64,000 nt of DNA from Thermotoga neapolitana DSM 4359 (GTDB lineage: Bacteria; Thermotogota; Thermotogae; Thermotogales; Thermotogaceae), in the NCBI RefSeq assembly GCF_000018945.1, contig NC_011978.1, positions 1,334,729 to 1,398,728 of the forward strand, written 5' to 3'. The notes under the pieces are model-generated. The model worked only from the letters and a program-made list of their open reading frames with translations, ran no database searches and was not told the DNA's origin. Shown one piece after another: positions 1,960-17,440 of the stretch. A program made the position numbers and the translations under genes. Numbering within the stretch: position 1 is the first letter of the stretch; every line of letters begins with the position of its first letter.

Positions 1960-1974
1960 ATGGGAGGAAATAGC

Positions 1975-2976
1975 ATGAAGAAAAAGTATGTAACGATCAG
2001 AGACATAGCAGAAAAGGCGGGAGTTTCGATAAACACAGTTTCAAGAGCGCTCAACAACAAACCGGACATAAGCGAAGAGACCAAAAAGAGAATACTGGAG
2101 ATAGCCAGAGAACTTGGATACGTGAAAAACGCAACTGCTTCGTCTTTGAGAAGCAAACGCACGAACATTGTGGGGGTCATCATAGCAGACAGCGCCAATC
2201 CCTTCTATGCAGAGGTGCTCAAGGGAATCGAAGTTGCTTCCAGGAAATATGGCTATCAGATCATCCTCATGAACACAGAGAGAATCTACGAAAACGAAGA
2301 AAAAGCGATCGATGTTCTCCTTCAGCGAAGAGTCGACGGCCTTCTCATAACACCAGTTCAGGACAGATCGGACGATATAGAGTTTTTGATAGAAAGAAAA
2401 GTTCCCTTCGTCGTGGTAGGAAGGCACTTTGAAGGGCTGGAAGTGGATGAGATCCACAGTGATGAGGTGAAAGGAGGATATCTGGCAACAAAACACCTCA
2501 TCGATCGTGGAAGAAGAAACATACTGATGATCAGTGGATACCTTTTTAAGTCCGCTGCTTACATGCGACTTGAAGGGTACAAGAAGGCGTTGAAGGAACA
2601 TGGTATTCCATTCAAAGAAGAGATGGTGATCGTGACGGACATCGACATAGAAAGCGGTTATCAGGCGATGAACGAAGCGATCGAAAAGGGGCTTCATTTC
2701 GATGCGGTTTTCTGCTATAACGATCTTCTTGCCTTCGGTGCTATGAAGGCGCTGAAAGAGCACGGATACAGGATTCCAGAAGACGTTGCTGTGGTTGGCT
2801 ACGATGATATCGTCTATTCCTCCTTTGTGTGTCCTCCTCTGACGACGGTAAGGATAAAGAAGTTCGAGATGGGCTTTGAGGCGTTCAGGATGCTTCTTCA
2901 GAGGATGAAGGGAAGAAGAAAGAAGAGAAAGCGTGTGATACTCGACGTGGAACTCGTTGTGAGAGAGAGTAGTTGA
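1975..2976 (+). CDS. LacI-family transcriptional regulator of galactoside genes
   Basis: This is a 333-residue cytoplasmic DNA-binding repressor. I chose ATG 1975 because GGGAGG at 1962-1967 lies 7 nt upstream; ATG 1960 has no ribosome site. The N-terminal helix-turn-helix reads TIRDIAEKAGVSINTVSRAL, with the hinge helix near residues 47-58. A periplasmic-binding-protein-like effector domain follows (VVGYDDIVYSSFVCPPLTTV near the end). The C-terminus ends KKRKRVILDVELVVRESS. Its position between galactanase and galactoside transporter genes, and LacI-type palindromes in the two promoters downstream, make a galactose or galactoside effector likely. A second, truncated copy of its 3' end lies at 6180-6236. 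Confidence 0.93.
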   Translation: MKKKYVTIRDIAEKAGVSINTVSRALNNKPDISEETKKRILEIARELGYVKNATASSLRSKRTNIVGVIIADSANPFYAEVLKGIEVASRKYGYQIILMNTERIYENEEKAIDVLLQRRVDGLLITPVQDRSDDIEFLIERKVPFVVVGRHFEGLEVDEIHSDEVKGGYLATKHLIDRGRRNILMISGYLFKSAAYMRLEGYKKALKEHGIPFKEEMVIVTDIDIESGYQAMNEAIEKGLHFDAVFCYNDLLAFGAMKALKEHGYRIPEDVAVVGYDDIVYSSFVCPPLTTVRIKKFEMGFEAFRMLLQRMKGRRKKRKRVILDVELVVRESS

Positions 2977-3055
2977 TATTGTTGATTTCTGGTCGTTAGA
3001 GACAAATATATTCATTTATGAGCGTTTAGAATCAAAATTCTCGGTTTTTCTTTCC

Positions 3056-3085
3056 TTGATCCTCTGTGAACGTTCACGGTATCAT
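3056..3085 (+). promoter_or_regulatory. Sigma-A promoter with LacI-type operator in the spacer
   Basis: The -35 is TTGATC (3056-3061) and the -10 is TATCAT (3080-3085), 18 bp apart. The spacer holds the perfect 12-bp palindrome GTGAACGTTCAC at 3066-3077, the form of a LacI-family operator. Repressor bound there would block RNA polymerase directly. A nearly identical copy lies at 6326-6355. The rest of the 2977-3126 gap is AT-rich and I see nothing else in it. Confidence 0.8.
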
Positions 3086-3126
3086 TTACATGGTAATACC
3101 AATCTTTTGTTGGGGAGGGTGGTACT

Positions 3127-4353
3127 ATGAAATTCCGATTTTGGATGGTTCTGGTACTTGTTATCCTGAGCGTTTTCGCTGTTGCCAAAGAAAAGATTGT
3201 CGTGAACTCCTACATTTCTGATCCAGCACCAAGGATCGTTTTTGCGGAGTTAGTGAAGATGTTTGAGGAAAAATACCCGGAATATGACGTAGTAGTGAAC
3301 ACGTTCCCACACGAAGATTTCAAAACTCTTCTCAGAACCTGGTTGAATTCTGATGAGGCTCCCGATGTCGTTACGTGGTTCGCTGGTGAAAGAATGAGGT
3401 ATTTTGCTAGCAAAGGACTTCTCGAACCTGTGGATGATATCTTTGCTCCCAAAAATTTTGAAGATTATTTCCCGACTTCTTTCAGAAGTGCCTGTGAGTA
3501 TGATGGAAGGATCTATTTTGTTCCTCAGAGTTGGTACTGGTGGGGTGTTTATTATAGGAAGTCTGTCTTCGAAAAGTACGGTATAACTCCTCCAAAAACT
3601 TGGGAAGAGTTCATAAAGGTTTGTGAGACCCTGAAGGAAAATGGAATAACTCCAATAACCATCGGAACCAAATACCTCTGGCCAGCAGCGGGATGGTTTG
3701 ACTATCTCGATCTCAGGGTAAATGGGCTGGACTTCCATATGAAGCTTACCGCTGGGGAAATTCCATATACTGATCCAAGAGTCAAAGAAGTTTTCCAATA
3801 CTGGAAGGAATTGGTCGAAAAAGGTTTCTTCCTTGAGAACCATTCCTCCTATACCTGGCAGGAAGCAGCCGCATTCCTCTTCAGAGGAGAAGCAGGAATG
3901 TATCTTATAGGACAGTTCATAAAAGATGTTGCTCCTGAATCTGTAAAAGATGATCTGGACTTCTTCAGATTCCCCATAATAAAGCCGGAGATAGGCCTTT
4001 ACGAAGAAACACCAATAGATGGATTCATGATACCAGCAAGAGCTAAGAACAAGGAAGGTGCCAAAGTGTTCCTCAAGTTCATTGCTGAAAAGGAAGTTCA
4101 GGAATACTTTGCTAAAAAACTCGGGAGACTTGCAGCAAACAAGAATGTAGAACCAGCAGACGAACATGCAGCAAAGGGATTGAAGATGATACTCGAATCT
4201 GATGGCGTCGCCCAGTTCTACGACAGAGATACAAATCCAGAAATGGCAACAGCTGGTATGAACGGCTTTGTTGAATTCATGATTTATCCTGAAAGACTCG
4301 ATCAAATTCTCGAAAATCTTGAAAGAGAAAGACAGAGGATTTTTGGGAAATAA
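3127..4353 (+). CDS. Sugar ABC transporter, substrate-binding protein (family 1, MalE-like)
   Basis: A 408-residue extracytoplasmic binding protein. Residues 1-20 are a signal peptide ending AVAKEK. The mature part has the family 1 signature: EKYPEYDVVV, then APDVVTWFAGERMRYFASKGLLEP, and Trp/Tyr-rich sugar-contact segments such as SWYWWGVYYRKSVFEKYG. The start ATG 3127 has GGGGAGG 8 nt upstream. Two CUT1 permease genes follow; no ATPase is encoded here, so it must share one (MsmK/MalK type) encoded elsewhere. Base use is visibly more AT-rich than in the flanking galactanase and galactosidase genes. The substrate is unknown; galactooligosaccharide is inferred from context. Confidence 0.9.
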   Translation: MKFRFWMVLVLVILSVFAVAKEKIVVNSYISDPAPRIVFAELVKMFEEKYPEYDVVVNTFPHEDFKTLLRTWLNSDEAPDVVTWFAGERMRYFASKGLLEPVDDIFAPKNFEDYFPTSFRSACEYDGRIYFVPQSWYWWGVYYRKSVFEKYGITPPKTWEEFIKVCETLKENGITPITIGTKYLWPAAGWFDYLDLRVNGLDFHMKLTAGEIPYTDPRVKEVFQYWKELVEKGFFLENHSSYTWQEAAAFLFRGEAGMYLIGQFIKDVAPESVKDDLDFFRFPIIKPEIGLYEETPIDGFMIPARAKNKEGAKVFLKFIAEKEVQEYFAKKLGRLAANKNVEPADEHAAKGLKMILESDGVAQFYDRDTNPEMATAGMNGFVEFMIYPERLDQILENLERERQRIFGK

Positions 4354-4377: not shown

Positions 4378-4422
4378 TCTTCTTCTCCCGACAAAATGTG
4401 TCCACAAAGGAGGAATATCCCT

Positions 4423-5304
4423 GTGTTGACAAAGAGATGGTGGGTCCCGTATGTCTTCTTGGCTGTTCCATTGACGCTTTATTTTATCTGGGTGATTTCT
4501 CCCATAGCGCAGACAATAATTTTGAGTTTCACAAATTGGGATGGAGTCAGCACAAAATTTGATTTTATAGGGTGGAAGAACTACACCAGACTTTTCTCTG
4601 ATCCTTACTTCTGGCTTTCCCTTAAAAACAACATAAAATGGCTTGTGTTTTTTGTTATTGTCGCCATTCCTGCAGGATTGGGAATGGCGATGCTCTTGGA
4701 CCAAAAATTTCCTGGAAACAAAATTTTTAAAACCCTCATATATCTTCCAATGACTTTGTCTTTTGTCGTCATAGGACAAATATGGTCATGGATTCTTGAA
4801 CCTAGAAGTGGTGTTTTGAATGAGTTTTTAAGAGCCATAGGTCTTGGTAGTCTCGCGAAACCCTGGTTGAGTGACCCGAAAATTGTAACATATGCCCTTA
4901 TAATGGCTGCACTGTGGAGGCAGATCGCCTACGCTATGGTACTTTTCCTTGCCGGTTTGAAGAATGTTTCTACTGAATTAGTCGAAGCAGCGTACGTCGA
5001 TGGTGCCAATGCATGTCAGAGATTCTGGTATGTGATTCTACCCGCTCTTAGACCAGCTATGGTAATAGCCATAACGGTGAATATTATAGATTCTCTGAGA
5101 GCATTTGACATTGTCTACGTTATGACTCGCGGAGGACCTTTCTATTCATCCAGTGTTCTGGCAAACTACATGTACATCCAATCATTCCATAACTATCGAA
5201 TGGGTTATGGATCTGCCATTGCTGTGATACAGTTCCTTATAACGCTTGGTTTCATCATTGTGTACCTTTTCTATACGCTAAAAAGGGAGGAAGAATCCAT
5301 ATGA
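4423..5304 (+). CDS. Sugar ABC transporter permease (MalF/UgpA type)
   Basis: A CUT1 inner-membrane permease of about 293 residues with six predicted membrane helices, the first being VPYVFLAVPLTLYFIWVI. The ATPase-docking EAA loop reads EAAYVDGANACQRFWYVILP. I prefer GTG 4423, 9 nt after AAAGGAGG (4406-4413). ATG 4396 lies upstream of that ribosome site and would put a charged, unconserved extension on the protein. The 3' end overlaps the next permease by 4 bp (ATGA), so the two are translationally coupled. It forms the channel with the product of 5301-6137. Confidence 0.9.
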   Translation: MLTKRWWVPYVFLAVPLTLYFIWVISPIAQTIILSFTNWDGVSTKFDFIGWKNYTRLFSDPYFWLSLKNNIKWLVFFVIVAIPAGLGMAMLLDQKFPGNKIFKTLIYLPMTLSFVVIGQIWSWILEPRSGVLNEFLRAIGLGSLAKPWLSDPKIVTYALIMAALWRQIAYAMVLFLAGLKNVSTELVEAAYVDGANACQRFWYVILPALRPAMVIAITVNIIDSLRAFDIVYVMTRGGPFYSSSVLANYMYIQSFHNYRMGYGSAIAVIQFLITLGFIIVYLFYTLKREEESI

Positions 5305-6137
5305 ACAGAAAGAAAGTGTTGAAAGCCATTATTTTTTATTCCCTGTCTGTTGTTCTGGTAATTATGTGGATGCTTCCCTTCATTATATCGATATTCACAT
5401 CGCTTAAAACAATGGATGAGGTTATATTGGGAATAAGATGGTGGGAACCTCCGAAGAAACCAACTTTTGAAAATTATGTTATAGCCTGGAGAGAAGCCAA
5501 TATGAAGAGGTACTTCATCAATACATTTATAATAACGAGTTTGTCCGTGTTAGGAGCATTGTTTGTATCCAGTTTAAGTGCTTTTGCGTTATCCTGGTAT
5601 AACTTCAAGTTGAAAAAACCTCTTTTGATAATGTTCGTTTCTGGAATGCTGATACCTTTCCAAATGTTGATGATACCCGTTTACAGATTTTCAGTTAGGA
5701 CAGGACTTTACGATACTTACTGGGGGGTAATACTCTTTCATATTGCATTTCAGACTGGTTTTTGTACTTTTTTCCTGAGAAATTTCATGGTTACCATACC
5801 AAGAAGTCTTTTTGAAGCAGCGAAAATCGATGGAGCCGGTGACTTCTTGATCTACAGAAAGATCATGATGCCATTGATACTGCCGGCCCTGGCCGCTCTT
5901 GGTATCCTTGAGTTCACCTGGATATGGAACGATTATCTCTGGTCGCTGGTTCTCATACAGAGTGATAGTTTAAAACCAGTAACCCTTGGTTTGACAACTC
6001 TCCAAGGACAGTGGGTCACGAGCTGGAATGTGATAGCTGCTGGAGCAAACCTTGCTGCGTTGGTACCAATAGTTGTTTTTCTGATCTTCCAGAGGTATTT
6101 CATAGAAGGGCTGACGCTTGGAAGTGTGAAGGGTTAA
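5301..6137 (+). CDS. Sugar ABC transporter permease (MalG/UgpE type)
   Basis: A 278-residue CUT1 permease, partner of the preceding gene. It has six helices, the EAA loop EAAKIDGAGDFLIYRKIMMP, and the usual MalG-type C-terminus QRYFIEGLTLGSVKG. Its ATG overlaps the stop codon of the upstream gene. Unlike many operon genes here it is followed by no hairpin; 43 bp later the sequence runs into a remnant of a lacI 3' end. Like its two partners it is richer in ATA, TTA and GTT codons than the neighbouring glycosidase genes, which suggests separate ancestry of this three-gene block. Confidence 0.9.
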   Translation: MNRKKVLKAIIFYSLSVVLVIMWMLPFIISIFTSLKTMDEVILGIRWWEPPKKPTFENYVIAWREANMKRYFINTFIITSLSVLGALFVSSLSAFALSWYNFKLKKPLLIMFVSGMLIPFQMLMIPVYRFSVRTGLYDTYWGVILFHIAFQTGFCTFFLRNFMVTIPRSLFEAAKIDGAGDFLIYRKIMMPLILPALAALGILEFTWIWNDYLWSLVLIQSDSLKPVTLGLTTLQGQWVTSWNVIAAGANLAALVPIVVFLIFQRYFIEGLTLGSVKG

Positions 6138-6179
6138 AAGTTAGGATTGGAAGAGGAGGGATTGTACTACACGGAAAGT

Positions 6180-6236
6180 CAAAAAAGAAAAGTACACGAA
6201 CTTAGGATGGAGCTTGTGGTGAGAAAGAGTCGTTGA
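6180..6236 (+). pseudogene. Remnant of the 3' end of a second lacI gene
   Basis: The frame ending at TGA 6234-6236 reads QKRKVHELRMELVVRKSR. The intact LacI upstream ends KKRKRVILDVELVVRESS, with 10 of 18 positions identical and no gaps. The DNA after both stop codons is also alike (TGATAT...GTTGAT...TTTGG or TTCTGG). Upstream of about 6180 I see no further similarity. It is best read as the scar of a lost or recombined lacI copy that once preceded the oligopeptide-type binding-protein gene. Confidence 0.75.
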
Positions 6237-6325
6237 TATGTTGTTGATATTTGGAATAAGAAGTTTTTACGTATATTTATTGACGTTTATAGCTGATTAT
6301 TGTTTGATATCTTCTTTTTTTCTTC

Positions 6326-6355
6326 TTGATCTTACATAAACGTTCACGGTATCAT
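6326..6355 (+). promoter_or_regulatory. Second copy of the LacI-type promoter/operator
   Basis: TTGATC (6326-6331), an 18-bp spacer and TATCAT (6350-6355) repeat the arrangement at 3056-3085. The stretch ACGTTCACGGTATCATTT matches it base for base. The operator's right half (ACGTTCAC) is intact while the left half is degenerate (ATAAACGTTCAC against GTGAACGTTCAC at 6336-6347), so repressor affinity may be lower. It drives the Opp-type galactoside transporter and the genes to galK. Confidence 0.78.
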
Positions 6356-6385
6356 TTACATGACTCCAGAGAAGGGGGGATTTTC

Positions 6386-8293
6386 ATGCGGAAATTTTTG
6401 GTGTTCCTCTTTTTGGTACTATCCATTGCTTCACTGTTGCTGGGGCAAACACTGCCACCTGGGGTACCTAGGGAGAAAACACTGATTCTGCCTTTCCTTT
6501 TCGCACCACTTCCAGTCCCGGGGAATTGGAATCTCTGGGCAGGTTGGCGCGCACAGAACTGTGGTTTACACCAGTTCGTCACAGAGCCATTGTGGACTAT
6601 CAACCCCAATCCTGAAGAGGGCGGTATTATAAATGCTCTCGCAGCCGAACCACCGATATACAGCGAAGACTTCACCAAACTCACGATAAAACTTAGGGAA
6701 GGGATTTACTGGAGCGACGGTGTTGAATTCACAGCAGATGACGTTGTGTTCACGATCAAGACTGTCAGAGACACATCCGGGTTAGACTATCACGGACCAA
6801 TGCAGGATGTAAAAGATGTCTACGCACTGGATAAGTACACGGTGGTGGTGGAACTCAAAAGACCAAACAGCAGATTCCATGCTTACTTTGTTGAAAGGTG
6901 GGGCGCTTTAAGACCTATGCCAAAACATATTTTCGAGAAGGTGGAGGATGTCGTTTCCTATGATTTCAACCCACCTGTGAGTTTAGGACCGTATGTTTTG
7001 AAGGATTATGATCCAGCAGGATATTGGGTGCTCTGGGAGAAGAGGAAAGACTGGCAGAGAACAGTTACTGGAAAACTCTTCGGCGAGCCTGTACCTGAAT
7101 ATGTTCTTTTCATCAACTACGGTACCGCTGAGAAGAACACCATGGCTATGCTAAGACATGAACTGGATGTTCTCCAGGGAACCGCTGAACAACTCATCAC
7201 GCTGTTGAGAGCAAGCAAAACCACGCGGAGCTACAGGAAAACATGGCCTTATATCGATCCCAGGGACATTTCCACCAGAGGTCCTGGTTTCAACCACATG
7301 GTTTATCCTTATGACATTAAAGACGTTAGATGGGCACTCGCATTGTCTATAGACATAGTAAAATTGGCAGTCTCCACCTACGATGGAATGGTGGCTATGA
7401 CACCTGGACTTCCACTGGTTGTGAACAAAAACTTCTATGAATGGTACTTCAAACGACTGGAACCATGGCTTGAGGATTTCACACTCGATCTTGGGAATGG
7501 AGAAACCTTCAAACCCTGGGATCCTCAGGCTCCCTGGAAGCTTCTTGATTGGGCACGGAAGATGTACAAGGTGGACATCGATCCAAACGACGAGGAAGAA
7601 GTACGTTTAACCCTGGGTTATGGCTGGTGGAAATACGCACCGAACGTAGCAGAGAAACTCTTGAAGAAGCATGGATTTTACAGGGACAAGGATGGAAAGT
7701 GGCATCTTCCAAACGGAGATCTGTGGAAAATAACCATTCTCAGAGGACCGGATCCAACCGACATGGCAAATATCATCATAGAAGGAATAGCAGAGCAGTG
7801 GAAAGAGTTTGGAATAGAGGTCGAATACAACGTTTCTGCGGCTGCTTCAACGCTCGCAGGAGAAGGGCGGTTTGAAGTGGTCAACACCGCACATGGAGGA
7901 TTTGCGGGAGAACCCTGGGGATTCCATCCGGATCTTTACAGATGTTTCAATGCCTTCAGGAGTGATTTCGTGAAACCTATAGGTGAATTGACCCTTGGAA
8001 GTGCTCTGAGATGGAGCGATCCCAGAATGGACAAAATCATAGAAGAACTAGAAAGGACGGACTGGAACGACTACGATAAGATCATAGAACTCGGTGTTGA
8101 AGGATTGAAGATAGAGATTGAAGAAATGATAGCAATACCCGTGTTCAACTGTCCTATAACGATCGTCTTCGATGAATACTACTGGACCAACTTCCCAAGT
8201 CCAGATAACGATTATGCGCGGTGCGATAATTTCACAACATGGCCACAGCTGAAATACCTCCTTCATAAAGTTCAGCCAGCTGGTAGAAAATAA
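6386..8293 (+). CDS. Oligopeptide/galactoside ABC transporter, substrate-binding protein (family 5)
   Basis: A 635-residue family 5 extracytoplasmic solute-binding protein. Residues 1-20 (MRKFLVFLFLVLSIASLLLG) are a signal peptide. The typical IKLREGIYWSDGVEFTADDV motif lies in the N-terminal lobe. I start at ATG 6386, preceded by AGAAGGGGGGA. An upstream in-frame TTG coincides with the promoter -35 and cannot be used. In Thermotoga many 'oligopeptide' transporters of this family carry oligosaccharides. Being the first gene of an operon with two beta-galactosidases, galA, galT and galK, its likely ligands are galactooligosaccharides or lactose-like sugars (inference). Confidence 0.9.
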   Translation: MRKFLVFLFLVLSIASLLLGQTLPPGVPREKTLILPFLFAPLPVPGNWNLWAGWRAQNCGLHQFVTEPLWTINPNPEEGGIINALAAEPPIYSEDFTKLTIKLREGIYWSDGVEFTADDVVFTIKTVRDTSGLDYHGPMQDVKDVYALDKYTVVVELKRPNSRFHAYFVERWGALRPMPKHIFEKVEDVVSYDFNPPVSLGPYVLKDYDPAGYWVLWEKRKDWQRTVTGKLFGEPVPEYVLFINYGTAEKNTMAMLRHELDVLQGTAEQLITLLRASKTTRSYRKTWPYIDPRDISTRGPGFNHMVYPYDIKDVRWALALSIDIVKLAVSTYDGMVAMTPGLPLVVNKNFYEWYFKRLEPWLEDFTLDLGNGETFKPWDPQAPWKLLDWARKMYKVDIDPNDEEEVRLTLGYGWWKYAPNVAEKLLKKHGFYRDKDGKWHLPNGDLWKITILRGPDPTDMANIIIEGIAEQWKEFGIEVEYNVSAAASTLAGEGRFEVVNTAHGGFAGEPWGFHPDLYRCFNAFRSDFVKPIGELTLGSALRWSDPRMDKIIEELERTDWNDYDKIIELGVEGLKIEIEEMIAIPVFNCPITIVFDEYYWTNFPSPDNDYARCDNFTTWPQLKYLLHKVQPAGRK

Positions 8294-8344: not shown

Positions 8345-9349
8345 ATGGCGTTCATCAAAAGTTATCTCATTCCAAGGTTGTTACAGTACTTTGTTGTGAC
8401 GTTTCTTGGACTCACGGCGATTTTCTTCTTACCCAGGTTGCTACCTGTAGATCCTATAAAGCAACAGCTCCAGCAATATCAAACTTTCGGTGTCTATATT
8501 CCCCCCGAGCAGCAGGAAGAGATGATGAGAACATTGAGGCAGCTTTACGGGCTGGAAGGAACTCTATGGGATCAGTATGTGAATTTCTGGAAGAGGTTGT
8601 TCACAGGGAATTTTGGGCCCTCACTTTCCAGATACCCGATTCCTGTCACACAACTCATTGCACAGGCTCTTCCGTGGACGGTGGGTTTGCTTTCTCTCAC
8701 GACGATTCTGAGCTGGATAGTGGCCGTGATCGCCGGGGGAATAGTGGGTTACTATAGAAAACGCTGGATGGAAGCTCTCGATGTGATAGTTATGATCATA
8801 AGACCCATCCCATACTATGTGATGGCTTTGATTTGCTTGATTCTCTTTGCCTATGTCTTTCCTATTTTTCCTTTGAGCGGCGGAATAGGCGTGGGACGCG
8901 AACTTACCTTCAGTTTAGAAACTGTTATTAGCATTATAAAACATGGCACCTTACCTGCTCTTACACTCCTGATAGTGGGTATTGCCTGGCAATTTCAGAG
9001 TATGAAACTCATGGTCCAGGTTGTGAAAGCTGAGGATCACGTCTGGTACGCGAAAACGGCGGGAGTAATAGAAAGAATGATAGTTCGCAATCATGTGATC
9101 AGAAACGCGATGCTTCCCATGATAACCCAGCTGGGCCTTCAATTTGGAGGGATATTCTCTGGGGCGTTGATCACAGAGATGGTCTTTGCGTACCCGGGAA
9201 TAGGATGGATCCTGTACGATGCCATTATGAAAGCTGACTATAACCTGATCATGGGAATCATGTGTATCTCCACGGTTGCTGTGACTACTTCTATTCTCTT
9301 CCTTGATCTTGTTTATCCCCTTTTCGATCCACGAGTGAGATATCGATGA
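8345..9349 (+). CDS. Opp/Dpp-type ABC transporter permease (DppB/OppB)
   Basis: A 334-residue inner-membrane permease. The N-terminal helix and long extracytoplasmic segment are typical of OppB (PRLLPVDPIKQQLQQY, RQLYGLEGTLWDQYVNFWKR), followed by five more helices. The C-terminal half has LITEMVFAYPGIGWILYDAI and the family ending FLDLVYPLFDPRVRYR. GGGAGG lies 8 nt before ATG 8345. It pairs with the DppC-type permease 16 bp downstream; together they form the channel served by the binding protein at 6386-8293. Confidence 0.93.
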   Translation: MAFIKSYLIPRLLQYFVVTFLGLTAIFFLPRLLPVDPIKQQLQQYQTFGVYIPPEQQEEMMRTLRQLYGLEGTLWDQYVNFWKRLFTGNFGPSLSRYPIPVTQLIAQALPWTVGLLSLTTILSWIVAVIAGGIVGYYRKRWMEALDVIVMIIRPIPYYVMALICLILFAYVFPIFPLSGGIGVGRELTFSLETVISIIKHGTLPALTLLIVGIAWQFQSMKLMVQVVKAEDHVWYAKTAGVIERMIVRNHVIRNAMLPMITQLGLQFGGIFSGALITEMVFAYPGIGWILYDAIMKADYNLIMGIMCISTVAVTTSILFLDLVYPLFDPRVRYR

Positions 9350-9365
9350 AGGTAGGGTGAAGATC

Positions 9366-10244
9366 ATGGAGCGAGTTTGGGGAGTCTTCAAGGATCTCTT
9401 CAGAGATTACAGATTCACGGTTGCTTTCATTGTACTGGTATTGCTGATATTTCTCTCTGTGCTGTCGCATTTTTCGCCCTATGATCCTATAAGAATTTAC
9501 CAGGTACCACGTGGTCTTCCTCCTTCACTTGAGCATCCGCTGGGTACCAACTGGCTTGGGCAGGATGTCTTCTGGAGACTCACTTTTGCTGTGAGAAACT
9601 CTCTGATGATAGCCGTTGTTACAGCGTTGTTTTCACGTGCAATAGCTGTTTTTGTGGGAATACTGTCAGGTTACAAAGGAGGAGCAGTGGATCGTGTCTT
9701 GATGACAGTAGGAGATACGACCATGGTTCTTCCGTTTTTGATCGTGCTCATTGTGATCTCCATGATTCTCAGAGACTGGACGAAGTCCTTTTTTAACCTG
9801 GGACTTCTTCTTGCTTTCTTTTCTTGGGCCTGGGACGCGAGGGTGATAAGGTCGCAGGTACTCAGTTTAAGGGAAAGAGATTTCACATTTGTTGCGATTC
9901 TTTCCGGTATGTCAACGTTGAGGATCGTCTACAAACAGTTGCTTCCTCACGTTCTTCCAATCATATTTACAACATTCATAAACAACATGGCGTGGGCAAT
10001 AGGTATGGAGATCACACTCGCTTACCTGGGGCTCGGTATCGATCCCACCGTTCCCACCATTGGAACAATGCTTCAGAGAGCGATTTACAGGCAGGCTCTC
10101 TTTCTCGGACTCTGGTGGTGGTTGGTTGCACCAATCGTTGCTGCAATTCTGTTGTTTGTGGCCCTCTACTGGTTATCCACCAGTGTAAGTGAATATCTGG
10201 ACCCAAGGGCTCGTTTTCAAAGAATTGGCTTTGGAAGGAAATAA
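9366..10244 (+). CDS. Opp/Dpp-type ABC transporter permease (DppC/OppC)
   Basis: A 292-residue permease with six helices, the OppC hallmark EHPLGTNWLGQDVFWRL near residue 57 and the ending LDPRARFQ. I take ATG 9366, 8-9 nt after AAGGTAGGG; GTG 9357 directly abuts that ribosome site. In most OppC proteins the HPLGTDxLGRD motif follows the first helix, as here. It is followed within 15 bp by the ATPase gene. Confidence 0.92.
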   Translation: MERVWGVFKDLFRDYRFTVAFIVLVLLIFLSVLSHFSPYDPIRIYQVPRGLPPSLEHPLGTNWLGQDVFWRLTFAVRNSLMIAVVTALFSRAIAVFVGILSGYKGGAVDRVLMTVGDTTMVLPFLIVLIVISMILRDWTKSFFNLGLLLAFFSWAWDARVIRSQVLSLRERDFTFVAILSGMSTLRIVYKQLLPHVLPIIFTTFINNMAWAIGMEITLAYLGLGIDPTVPTIGTMLQRAIYRQALFLGLWWWLVAPIVAAILLFVALYWLSTSVSEYLDPRARFQRIGFGRK

Positions 10245-10258
10245 CGGAGGTGTCACAG

Positions 10259-11221
10259 GTGAAAGCGACTATTCTTGAAGTAAAGAATCTCACGAAGGTG
10301 TTTACTGTGGGATCATGGATATTCAGAACAAAAATTGTAGCGGTTGACGATATATCTTTTTCTTTAAGAAATGCAGAGATATTCACTCTGGCAGGAGAAA
10401 GTGGATGTGGGAAAACGACAACAGCGCGAATGATCTTGGGATTTGAAGAACCAACGTCTGGTGATATCGTGTTTGAGGGTGTGAGTATCCATGAATGGAA
10501 AAAGAAAAGAAAGGAATTCATGAAGAAGGTGCAGGCAGTGTTTCAGAATCCATTTGAAGGCTTCAATCCTCTTCTCAGTATAGACGATATATTCTTCGAA
10601 ACCGTACGTAACTACGCCCTTGCCTCTACAAACGATGAAGCCAGAAGATTGATCGACGAGAAATTAAAACTCGTCGGATTGAGGTTCGAAGACATAAATG
10701 GTCGCTATTCAAGTGAACTCTCTGGAGGGCAGCTTCAAAGAGCCCTGATCGCTCGTGCTTTGCTAAGTAATCCTTCACTCCTGATAGCAGATGAACCTGT
10801 CTCCATGGTGGATGCCTCTCTCAGAATGTCCATTGTCAACCTTTTTGCTCAACTCAGAGACCAGCTCGGAGTGAGTGTCATTTACATCACCCATGATCTG
10901 GCCACAGCCTATTACGTGAGCGATCGTATAGCGATCATGTTTCGAGGGGACATTGTGGAAATGGGGTCGGTGGAAAGAGTGCTGACAGATCCCAAGCATC
11001 CATACACGCGTCTGTTGCGTGAATCTATACCGGAACCCGACCCTGAGAAAAAATGGAAAGAAGAGATCACCATAGCGGACACGGAATATGAAGAGTATCT
11101 GAGAAAGGGTTGCAAGTTTGCAGGAAGGTGTCCTGAAGTAATGAGTATTTGTAGGGAAGAAAAGCCTCCTGAGATTATGGTGGGAGATTCTATGGTGAGA
11201 TGCCACCTTTACAAAAAATGA
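10259..11221 (+). CDS. Opp/Dpp-type ABC transporter ATPase (DppF/OppF-like)
   Basis: A 320-residue nucleotide-binding subunit: Walker A GESGCGKTT, Q-loop FQNPFEGFNP, signature LSGGQLQRALIARAL, Walker B LLIADEPVSMVD and switch His in YITHDLA. The C-terminus carries the Cys-rich oligopeptide-transporter tail (GCKFAGRCPEVMSIC). GTG 10259 is preferred, 8 nt after GGAGG (10246-10250); GTG 10250 overlaps that site. A second ATPase of the same transporter lies at 13197, separated by the GH42 gene. Confidence 0.92.
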   Translation: MKATILEVKNLTKVFTVGSWIFRTKIVAVDDISFSLRNAEIFTLAGESGCGKTTTARMILGFEEPTSGDIVFEGVSIHEWKKKRKEFMKKVQAVFQNPFEGFNPLLSIDDIFFETVRNYALASTNDEARRLIDEKLKLVGLRFEDINGRYSSELSGGQLQRALIARALLSNPSLLIADEPVSMVDASLRMSIVNLFAQLRDQLGVSVIYITHDLATAYYVSDRIAIMFRGDIVEMGSVERVLTDPKHPYTRLLRESIPEPDPEKKWKEEITIADTEYEEYLRKGCKFAGRCPEVMSICREEKPPEIMVGDSMVRCHLYKK

Positions 11222-11237: not shown

Positions 11238-13184
11238 ATGCTCGGAGTTTGTTACTATCCGGAACACTGGGGTGTTGAAAAGGTAGAAGAAGACTTCAGA
11301 AGGATGAAAGAACTCGGGATAGAGTACGTGAGAATCGGAGAGTTTGCTTGGAGCAGAATAGAGCCGGAGCGAGGAAAATTCAACTGGGAATGGCTGGACA
11401 GAACGCTGGAAGCGGCCGAGAGGATGGGTTTGAAGATCATCCTGGGAACACCCACAGCCACACCTCCAAAGTGGCTTGTGGACGAGCATTCAGAGATCCT
11501 TCCTGTCGACAGAGAAGGAAGAGTGAAGAACTTTGGCTCCAGAAGACATTACTGTTTCTCCAGCCCTGTGTATCGGGAAGAAGCAAAGAGAATCGTCTCC
11601 ATTGTTGCAGGAAGGTACGGAAAGCATCCGGCTGTTGTGGGCTGGCAGACCGACAACGAGTACGGCTGTCACGACACGGTGAGGTGTTACTGTCCAAGGT
11701 GTAAGAAAGCCTTCCAGAAATGGCTTGAGAGAAGATACGAAGGAGACATAGATAAACTGAACAGGGCCTGGGGAACGGTGTTCTGGAGTCAGGAATACAG
11801 GTCCTTCGAGGAGATAGAACTTCCCAACCTCACACCTGCAGGTCCAAATCCTTCGCATCTTCTCGATTACTACAGATTCGCCTCAGACCAGGTGGTAGAG
11901 TTCAACAGGCTCCAGGTGGAGATCATAAGAGAACTTTCTCCGGGAAGGTTCGTCACGCACAACTTCATGGCTGGCTTCACAGACTTTGATCACTACAAAA
12001 TCTCAAAAGACCTGGACTTTGCCAGCTGGGACAACTATCCACTCGGTCACACTCTAGTCTTTCTGAGAGCGAAGGGAGAAAGCAAGAACCCGTTCAACAG
12101 GGTGGGACACCCTGACATAATCTCCTTCTCACACGATCTTTATCGTGGTGTGGGTAGGGGAAGGTTCTGGGTGATGGAACAGCAGGCAGGGCCTGTGAAC
12201 TGGGCTCCCTACAATCTCTGGCCGGCAGAGGGTGCGGTGAGGCTCTGGACCTGGCAGGCTTTTGCACACGGAGCAGAAGTGGTTTCTTACTTCAGGTGGA
12301 GGCAGGCACCCTTTGCACAGGAGCAGATGCACTCTGGCCTTCTTGCTCCGGACTCATCTCCATCTCAGGGATATCAGGAGGTAAAGCAGGTCTTTGAAGA
12401 ACTGAAAGGTGTTGATCTGAGCGAACCGGTAAAGAGTGAAGTTGCCCTCGTTTTCGATTACGAGACGGCGTGGGTGTTTTCCATCCAGCCACACGGCGAA
12501 GGTGTTAATTACCTTGATCTTGTCCTCAGGTTCTACAGTGCCCTCAGAGGGCTTGGCCTCAATGTGGATATCGTGTCGGCTGATTCTCCTCTAGATGGTT
12601 ACAGAATGGTGGTTGTTCCAAGCCTTGCAATCGTGAGGGAAGAGGCCCTGGAGAACTTCAAAAAATACAGCGGTGTTCTTGTGATTGGTCCAAGAAGCGG
12701 TAGCAAAACAGAAACCTTCCAGATTCCAGAAGAGATGCCTCCCGGTCTTCTGAAGGAGATCATACCTGTGGAGGTAAAAAGGGTTGAAAGTCTTGGAACA
12801 GGAAACGTTGAAGTTCTTCTGTGGGATGGGAAAAAGTACCCTGTGACGATCTGGAGAGAGGATGTGGATCCCACCATCGCGGAAGTGGTGGCAAGATTTG
12901 AAGACGGTCCCGGAGCGATCTTTCGTAAAGAAAACGTGTACTATCTTGCCTTCTGGCCGGACAGAGAATTTCTTCTGGATTTCTTCGAAAAACTGATGAA
13001 GGAGATAGGGTACACGGTGAGAAGACTTCCAGAGGGTGTGCGCATTCAAAAGAGAGGAAAGTACACGTTTGCTTTCAACTTTTCACCTCATGAAACAGAA
13101 GTGGAGATACCGGATGATGCCCGGATCGTTCTGGGCGATCGAAAAGTAGAACCTTACAGTCTGGTTGTCTGGGAAGAAGTATGA
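11238..13184 (+). CDS. Beta-galactosidase, GH42
   Basis: A cytoplasmic retaining beta-galactosidase of 648 residues; no signal peptide. The barrel (residues 1-390) contains acid/base E141 in WQTDNEYGC and nucleophile E314 in WVMEQQAGPVNW, close to E141/E312 of the Thermus A4 enzyme. A zinc-site cluster of cysteines follows E141 (CHDTVRCYCPRCKKAF). A trimerisation domain (about 395-590) and a C-terminal beta domain follow. It sits between the two ATPase genes of the galactoside transporter, so it probably hydrolyses imported galactooligosaccharides. GGGGGAGG lies 8 nt before ATG 11238. Confidence 0.95.
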   Translation: MLGVCYYPEHWGVEKVEEDFRRMKELGIEYVRIGEFAWSRIEPERGKFNWEWLDRTLEAAERMGLKIILGTPTATPPKWLVDEHSEILPVDREGRVKNFGSRRHYCFSSPVYREEAKRIVSIVAGRYGKHPAVVGWQTDNEYGCHDTVRCYCPRCKKAFQKWLERRYEGDIDKLNRAWGTVFWSQEYRSFEEIELPNLTPAGPNPSHLLDYYRFASDQVVEFNRLQVEIIRELSPGRFVTHNFMAGFTDFDHYKISKDLDFASWDNYPLGHTLVFLRAKGESKNPFNRVGHPDIISFSHDLYRGVGRGRFWVMEQQAGPVNWAPYNLWPAEGAVRLWTWQAFAHGAEVVSYFRWRQAPFAQEQMHSGLLAPDSSPSQGYQEVKQVFEELKGVDLSEPVKSEVALVFDYETAWVFSIQPHGEGVNYLDLVLRFYSALRGLGLNVDIVSADSPLDGYRMVVVPSLAIVREEALENFKKYSGVLVIGPRSGSKTETFQIPEEMPPGLLKEIIPVEVKRVESLGTGNVEVLLWDGKKYPVTIWREDVDPTIAEVVARFEDGPGAIFRKENVYYLAFWPDREFLLDFFEKLMKEIGYTVRRLPEGVRIQKRGKYTFAFNFSPHETEVEIPDDARIVLGDRKVEPYSLVVWEEV

Positions 13185-13196
13185 GGAGGCGAGTGG

Positions 13197-17440
<4,244 letters not shown>

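Follow-up and report, generated by a model that had tools for sequence, protein, structure and literature searches.

How a single regulated locus came to hold one intact lacI-family gene, two transporter operons of different types and, between them, the apparent tail of a second lacI gene is the question raised by a stretch of 64,000 nucleotides of Thermotoga neapolitana DSM 4359 (hereafter the window; the genome, G000, is one contig of 1,884,562 bases). The gene order at this locus is galA (GH53), lacI, malEFG (the CUT1 set), a scar, oppABCD, bgal and oppF, and its parts, in window coordinates, are as follows:

1960..2976, + strand: intact lacI-family regulator gene (Pfam LacI and Peripla_BP)
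2910..3092, + strand: direct repeat copy 1, i.e., lacI 3' end, intergenic stretch and promoter/operator (local alignment)
3056..3085, + strand: promoter copy 1, TTGATC-18-TATCAT, whose spacer holds the palindromic operator GTGAACGTTCAC (3066-3077)
3127..4353, + strand: CUT1 solute-binding protein gene, malE-like (best solved relative AcbH, 3oo6, E 2.4e-67)
4396..5304, + strand: CUT1 permease gene, malF-like, start uncertain between 4396 and 4438 (BPD_transp_1)
5301..6137, + strand: CUT1 permease gene, malG-like (BPD_transp_1)
6150..6176, + strand: scar part 1, a probable remnant of the bgal ribosome-binding site and 5' end (similarity to bgal starts, weak in the window)
6173..6362, + strand: direct repeat copy 2, i.e., lacI 3' stub, intergenic stretch and promoter/operator (local alignment)
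6180..6236, + strand: scar part 2, a lacI 3'-terminal stub of 18 codons plus stop (similarity to lacI tails)
6326..6355, + strand: promoter copy 2, TTGATC-18-TATCAT, with operator ATAAACGTTCAC (6336-6347)
6386..8293, + strand: Opp-type (SBP_bac_5) solute-binding protein gene, ltpE-like by context (92.6% amino acid identity to the G001 gene)
8345..11221, + strand: oppB, oppC and oppD, Opp-type permeases and first ATPase (73-88% amino acid identity to the operons of G001 and G010)
11238..13184, + strand: intact beta-galactosidase gene, bgal (weak GH35-family match)
13197..14177, + strand: oppF, second Opp ATPase

The first transporter, with an SBP_bac_1 binding protein and two BPD_transp_1 permeases, is a CUT1 ABC transporter. 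The regulator at the same locus is 80-97% identical at the amino acid level in other Thermotoga genomes and in an outgroup from another genus (G010). By context, we assigned the window lacI as the ortholog of the published Thermotoga GalR and equated the window genes with the published GalR and ltp names. AcbH, the nearest solved relative of the CUT1 binding protein, binds galactose, which fits the GalR context. In T. maritima, GalR has been reported to control ltpEFGKL and ganEFG, and induction of the ltp and gan operons by galactose or galactosides has also been reported (PMC3750489).

The earlier note on this DNA had claimed that the frame ending at 6236 encodes a LacI C-terminal tail and that the DNA past each stop is repeated together with the promoter/operator; both claims held well beyond chance. 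The frame reads QKRKVHELRMELVVRKSR before its stop and shares 10 of 18 residues with the tail of the intact LacI, KKRKRVILDVELVVRESS; the BLOSUM score of this peptide against the LacI tail was reached by 14 of 100,000 permutations. Local alignment of positions 2880-3130 against 6138-6390 yielded a single path, pairing 2910-3092 with 6173-6362, with a score of 52 (as compared to a mean of 11.5 and a maximum of 22 among 1000 shuffles). When scored against eight lacI tails, the coding tail (6179-6236) beat all of 2000 dinucleotide-preserving shuffles, as did its counterpart in a second Thermotoga genome, G006, where the in-frame residues are EKKKHAILDMELEVKSGRYL, followed by a stop. The similarity of the stub to lacI is thus real and far above chance, and with malG ending at 6137, approx. 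57 nt of lacI remain as a pseudogene stub. One might still suppose that the stub and the second promoter reflect chance similarity or convergent promoter evolution, since the operators of a single regulator should resemble one another; however, the similarity spans an intergenic stretch as well as a coding tail (0/2000 shuffles) and in-frame lacI residues recur in G006, which makes this reading extremely improbable, and chance similarity of the stub itself was ruled out by the shuffle tests of the repeat and the coding tail. Hardly any weight can likewise be given to the stub being a functional short peptide gene. The window does contain an open frame of 29 codons from a TTG at 6147, preceded by a purine-rich stretch, but neither the frame nor its length is conserved in G006, where the bgal-like and lacI-like parts of the scar lie in different frames. 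With its frame not conserved, the stub gives no impression of encoding a product, and a functional short peptide was rejected; we regard the chimeric sequence as non-functional.

Both promoter copies carry -35- and -10-like hexamers 18 nt apart. Sites matching the promoter/operator core (TTGAT...AACGTTCACGGTATCATT) with at most 3 mismatches numbered exactly two genome-wide, one before the CUT1 operon and one before the Opp operon, so that by sequence both operons have a GalR-type operator; promoter-like sites as such showed no excess over shuffles across the whole region. As the architecture is the same in both copies, with the operator between the -35- and -10-like hexamers, one LacI protein likely co-represses both operons.

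The two promoter-region copies are 73% alike in the window. In G006, on the other hand, the stretch that begins at the lacI stop and extends beyond the -10 agrees between the copies at 112 of 115 bases, although the tails preceding it differ, which suggests that the G006 copies were homogenised by gene conversion. This homogenisation blurs copy-by-copy ancestry. The G006 lacI (L002 4357-4400) has also lost its usual stop and gained three codons (RYL) that also end the stub copy in the same genome; the lacI of G007 likewise reads through the usual stop.

Mapping of the locus by tblastn across relatives revealed four layouts. An Opp-only form, i.e., lacI followed by the Opp-type (ltp) transporter, bgal and oppF, was found in the T. 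maritima-like G001 (one contig of 1,860,725 bp) and in the outgroup G010. In G003, G004 and G005, the CUT1 set is directly followed by bgal. Both transporters together with the scar occur in G000 and G006 only, with the same stub in both, more clearly preserved in G006. Neither transporter is present in G002, where the operator lies directly before bgal. G007 shows lacI-malEF up to the end of its contig. The position of bgal is the same in all relatives with a complete locus here. The statement in the earlier note that MSB8 lacks CUT1 genes here is consistent with G001, which we take to fit T. maritima MSB8 and in which lacI is followed directly by oppA. CUT1-less relatives thus exist (G001 and G010), layouts vary among relatives instead of being uniform and free of the repeat, and in none of the seven Thermotoga genomes does the locus hold a tandem of two complete lacI genes.

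We consider it probable (roughly 70%) that two allelic forms of a galactoside-utilisation (GalR) locus were merged by recombination and that the stub is the fossil of this event. The parents would have been lacI-malEFG-bgal and lacI-oppABCD-bgal-oppF. On the left side, homologous exchange would have taken place within lacI or upstream of it; the two parental layouts have homologous lacI and galA genes, and the exact left crossover was not located. On the right side, the bgal 5' end would have been joined illegitimately to the lacI 3' end at a shared GAGAAAG. The product would hold one whole lacI, one 3' stub and both transporter operons, with a second copy of the lacI tail, promoter and operator ahead of the Opp-type operon, so that both operons probably answer to one GalR. 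Such a one-step event would resemble homology-facilitated illegitimate recombination (HFIR) during DNA uptake. Natural competence has been documented in Thermotoga sp. RQ7 (PMC4029938), and most HFIR junctions show microhomology of 3-10 bp, with coupled deletion of resident DNA (PMC3240628).

The right-hand join is most legible in G006, where GTTTGTTACTACGCGGAAAAC, found within the first 60 bases past the malG stop, matches the bgal 5' end. Among approx. 9000 windows of 100 nt (approx. 225 kb, both strands), the best matches of the G006 segment after its ortholog were the bgal starts of G003, G000 and G001, and among 5000 shuffles none reached its mean score and 2 reached its maximum. The remnant in the window is weaker (the maximum was reached by 140 of 5000 shuffles) and short, approx. 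25-37 nt; within it, AAGAGGAGGGATTGT agrees with the leader of bgal in G004 at 14 of 15 bases. Both bgal and lacI align ungapped to the G006 junction, with GAGAAAG (7 nt) at the same columns in both, and similarity passes from bgal to lacI at this motif, in a junction that has diverged by approx. 14% of nucleotides since the G000/G006 split. The remnant lies past malG and ahead of the stub, the very place of bgal in the CUT1-only genomes. The scar therefore probably reads malG, bgal 5' remnant, lacI 3' remnant, promoter/operator and oppA, and since it also holds a probable bgal 5' remnant, the CUT1 parent would have been lacI-malEFG-bgal, i.e., more than lacI-malEFG.

The identical junction (malG-bgal5'-lacI3'-promoter-opp) would be expected if lacI-malEFG-bgal had integrated beside lacI-opp by a single crossover and the stretch from the bgal 5' end to the lacI 3' end had later been deleted from the resulting tandem, a deletion that the short shared GAGAAAG would also serve. 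This course of events requires one more step, however, and the intermediate with two full lacI genes is the very tandem missing from the seven Thermotoga genomes; we regard it as unlikely, if conceivable. The single-step merger also modifies what the earlier note had proposed, namely that a lacI-plus-CUT1 cassette entered an older lacI-plus-Opp locus. That lacI-CUT1 was joined to lacI-Opp, with one regulator and a stub kept, is upheld by two parental layouts that are both living and by the same stub in G006, but the scar contains the probable bgal remnant as well, the join appears older than the G000/G006 split, and the greater age of the Opp set is likely, judging from G010, rather than given.

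As for the age of the join, identity between G000 and G006 amounts to 86.1% in rpoB, 85-87% in malE, malF and malG and 86.3% in oppA. As malEFG and oppA have diverged as much as rpoB, the merged block is about as old as the G000/G006 split, and by this measure the junction predates that split (approx. 86% nucleotide identity). A recent strain-specific insertion was rejected, given the same junction in G006 at species-level divergence; the merged layout, found in two genomes only, reflects one shared event.

Regarding direction, the Opp set is likely the older resident and the CUT1 set the incoming one, judged from the outgroup G010, which has Opp only, although the opposite polarity would give the same product. 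An ancestral merged locus, from which G001 lost malEFG by repeat recombination and G003, G004 and G005 lost opp by deletion, appears improbable to us. It would agree with the direct repeats flanking malEFG, whose recombination would restore lacI-opp, and with the degree of malEFG divergence, which between several of the species approximates that of rpoB. It is at odds, however, with the Opp-only locus of the outgroup, it does not lead one to expect a bgal 5' remnant upstream of the stub, and it conflicts with the malEFG phylogeny. G004 is the nearest relative of G000 (95.7% identity in rpoB), and its galA and lacI are 92% identical to those of the window, but malEFG only 75-79%, and the malEFG tree rejects a G000+G004 clade (p-AU 1.8e-5). 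This rejection, despite the rpoB identity, indicates that transporter sets have moved laterally.

A lacI tree including the stub was uninformative because the tail is too short, and a tree of the lacI tail plus promoter was used; here the window stub and promoter grouped with G006, and copy 1 with G004. A malEFG-lacI cassette like that on contig C19 of G010 (L060; lacI 57% identical) was considered as the direct source of the stub. Since the sequence past the stub runs on into promoter and Opp leader just as it does at lacI-opp loci, a lacI-opp tail fits better as its source, as far as a stub short for a lacI tree allows.

Besides the G000/G006 merger, two comparisons place a switch of transporters in or near the same region. 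Between G001 and G003, the regions downstream of lacI, including the promoter, are 89% alike and the transporters behind them are unrelated; the switch falls at the operator/-10 core, beyond which the leader belongs to the transporter. Between G000 and G004, identity drops near the same place, at approx. 2840-3040, i.e., at the lacI end and promoter. We tentatively suggest, at somewhat less than even odds, that the lacI 3' end with the GalR operator/promoter is a recurrent seam where transporter cassettes are exchanged between Thermotoga lineages while the regulator stays constant. On this reading, the two copies in the merged loci would keep recombining, in line with their homogenisation in G006, so that malEFG may be excisable; the direct repeats around it predict reversion to a single-transporter form.

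Other ends and fusions were observed at this locus in relatives. In G002 (L055 7640-7703), oppABCD is absent, lost without replacement while oppF is intact, and the GalR operator GTGAACGTTCAC runs directly into the bgal leader, which may represent a further recombination or deletion end at the operator. G003 has malEFG in place of oppABCD, and its orphan oppF behind bgal (L052 12426-13397) is broken by stops and frameshifts. Immediately ahead of lacI, G003 has a ganE-type promoter/operator, TTGACATCACGGTAACTTTCACGGTAACGTT, that departs from the GalR core at 3 positions (L052 6195-6285), and no galA was found on the stretch at lacI; a deletion of ganEFG-galA that fused the promoter to lacI would produce such an arrangement.

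The merger adds a new, exceptionally readable instance to a known class of events and is not a new molecular system. With HFIR it would share one homologous and one illegitimate side, the latter at a microhomology of 3-10 bp, and an insertion accompanied by loss of resident DNA; published cases average approx. 1 kb for insertions and deletions alike, whereas here approx. 3 kb of genes were gained and the mechanism is read from an ancient fossil (PMC3240628). The orphan immunity-gene arrays of Vibrio T6SS loci, which arise by sequential displacement and for which HFIR was proposed too, are similar in their conserved upstream anchor, newly inserted module and downstream remnant of the displaced unit (PMC5361080). 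Here, in contrast, the locus is a sugar-transport operon under a LacI-family regulator, and the remnant is not a retained gene but a dead gene tail with a still intact-looking promoter. By context, the T. maritima GalR regulon has an orthologous lacI/GalR gene, galactan hydrolase, beta-galactosidase and Opp-type transporter operon (PMC3750489), the difference being that in the T. maritima-like G001 no CUT1 genes separate lacI from the Opp operon. In the Thermotoga UxaR regulon, aguEFG is replaced by uxaPQM/uxaXYZ (PMC3750489), i.e., there too a single regulated locus received different transporters by substitution in sister species; here the swap is also found half way, with both transporters coexisting and the junction preserved. 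A readable junction with both parental layouts living indicates how bacteria may add a second transporter to an existing regulon: as promoter and operator travel with the broken regulator-gene tail, the downstream operon would keep its control. The relevance is mainly to operon evolution in Thermotoga.

A search of plasmid records gave no match. Related malEFG sets (approx. 67-71% amino acid identity) were found at L060 12443-16485 (G010, C19) and L061 11640-15616 (G013), each adjoining its own lacI-family gene, located after malG in G010 (57% identical) and before malE in G013 (50%). G007 belongs to another genus, with rpoB 67-69% identical to that of Thermotoga; its lacI and malEF (L058 201-3485) are 75-85% identical to Thermotoga genes, with G006 nearest, which suggests either inter-genus transfer or a misbinned contig (3.5 kb, metagenome assembly).
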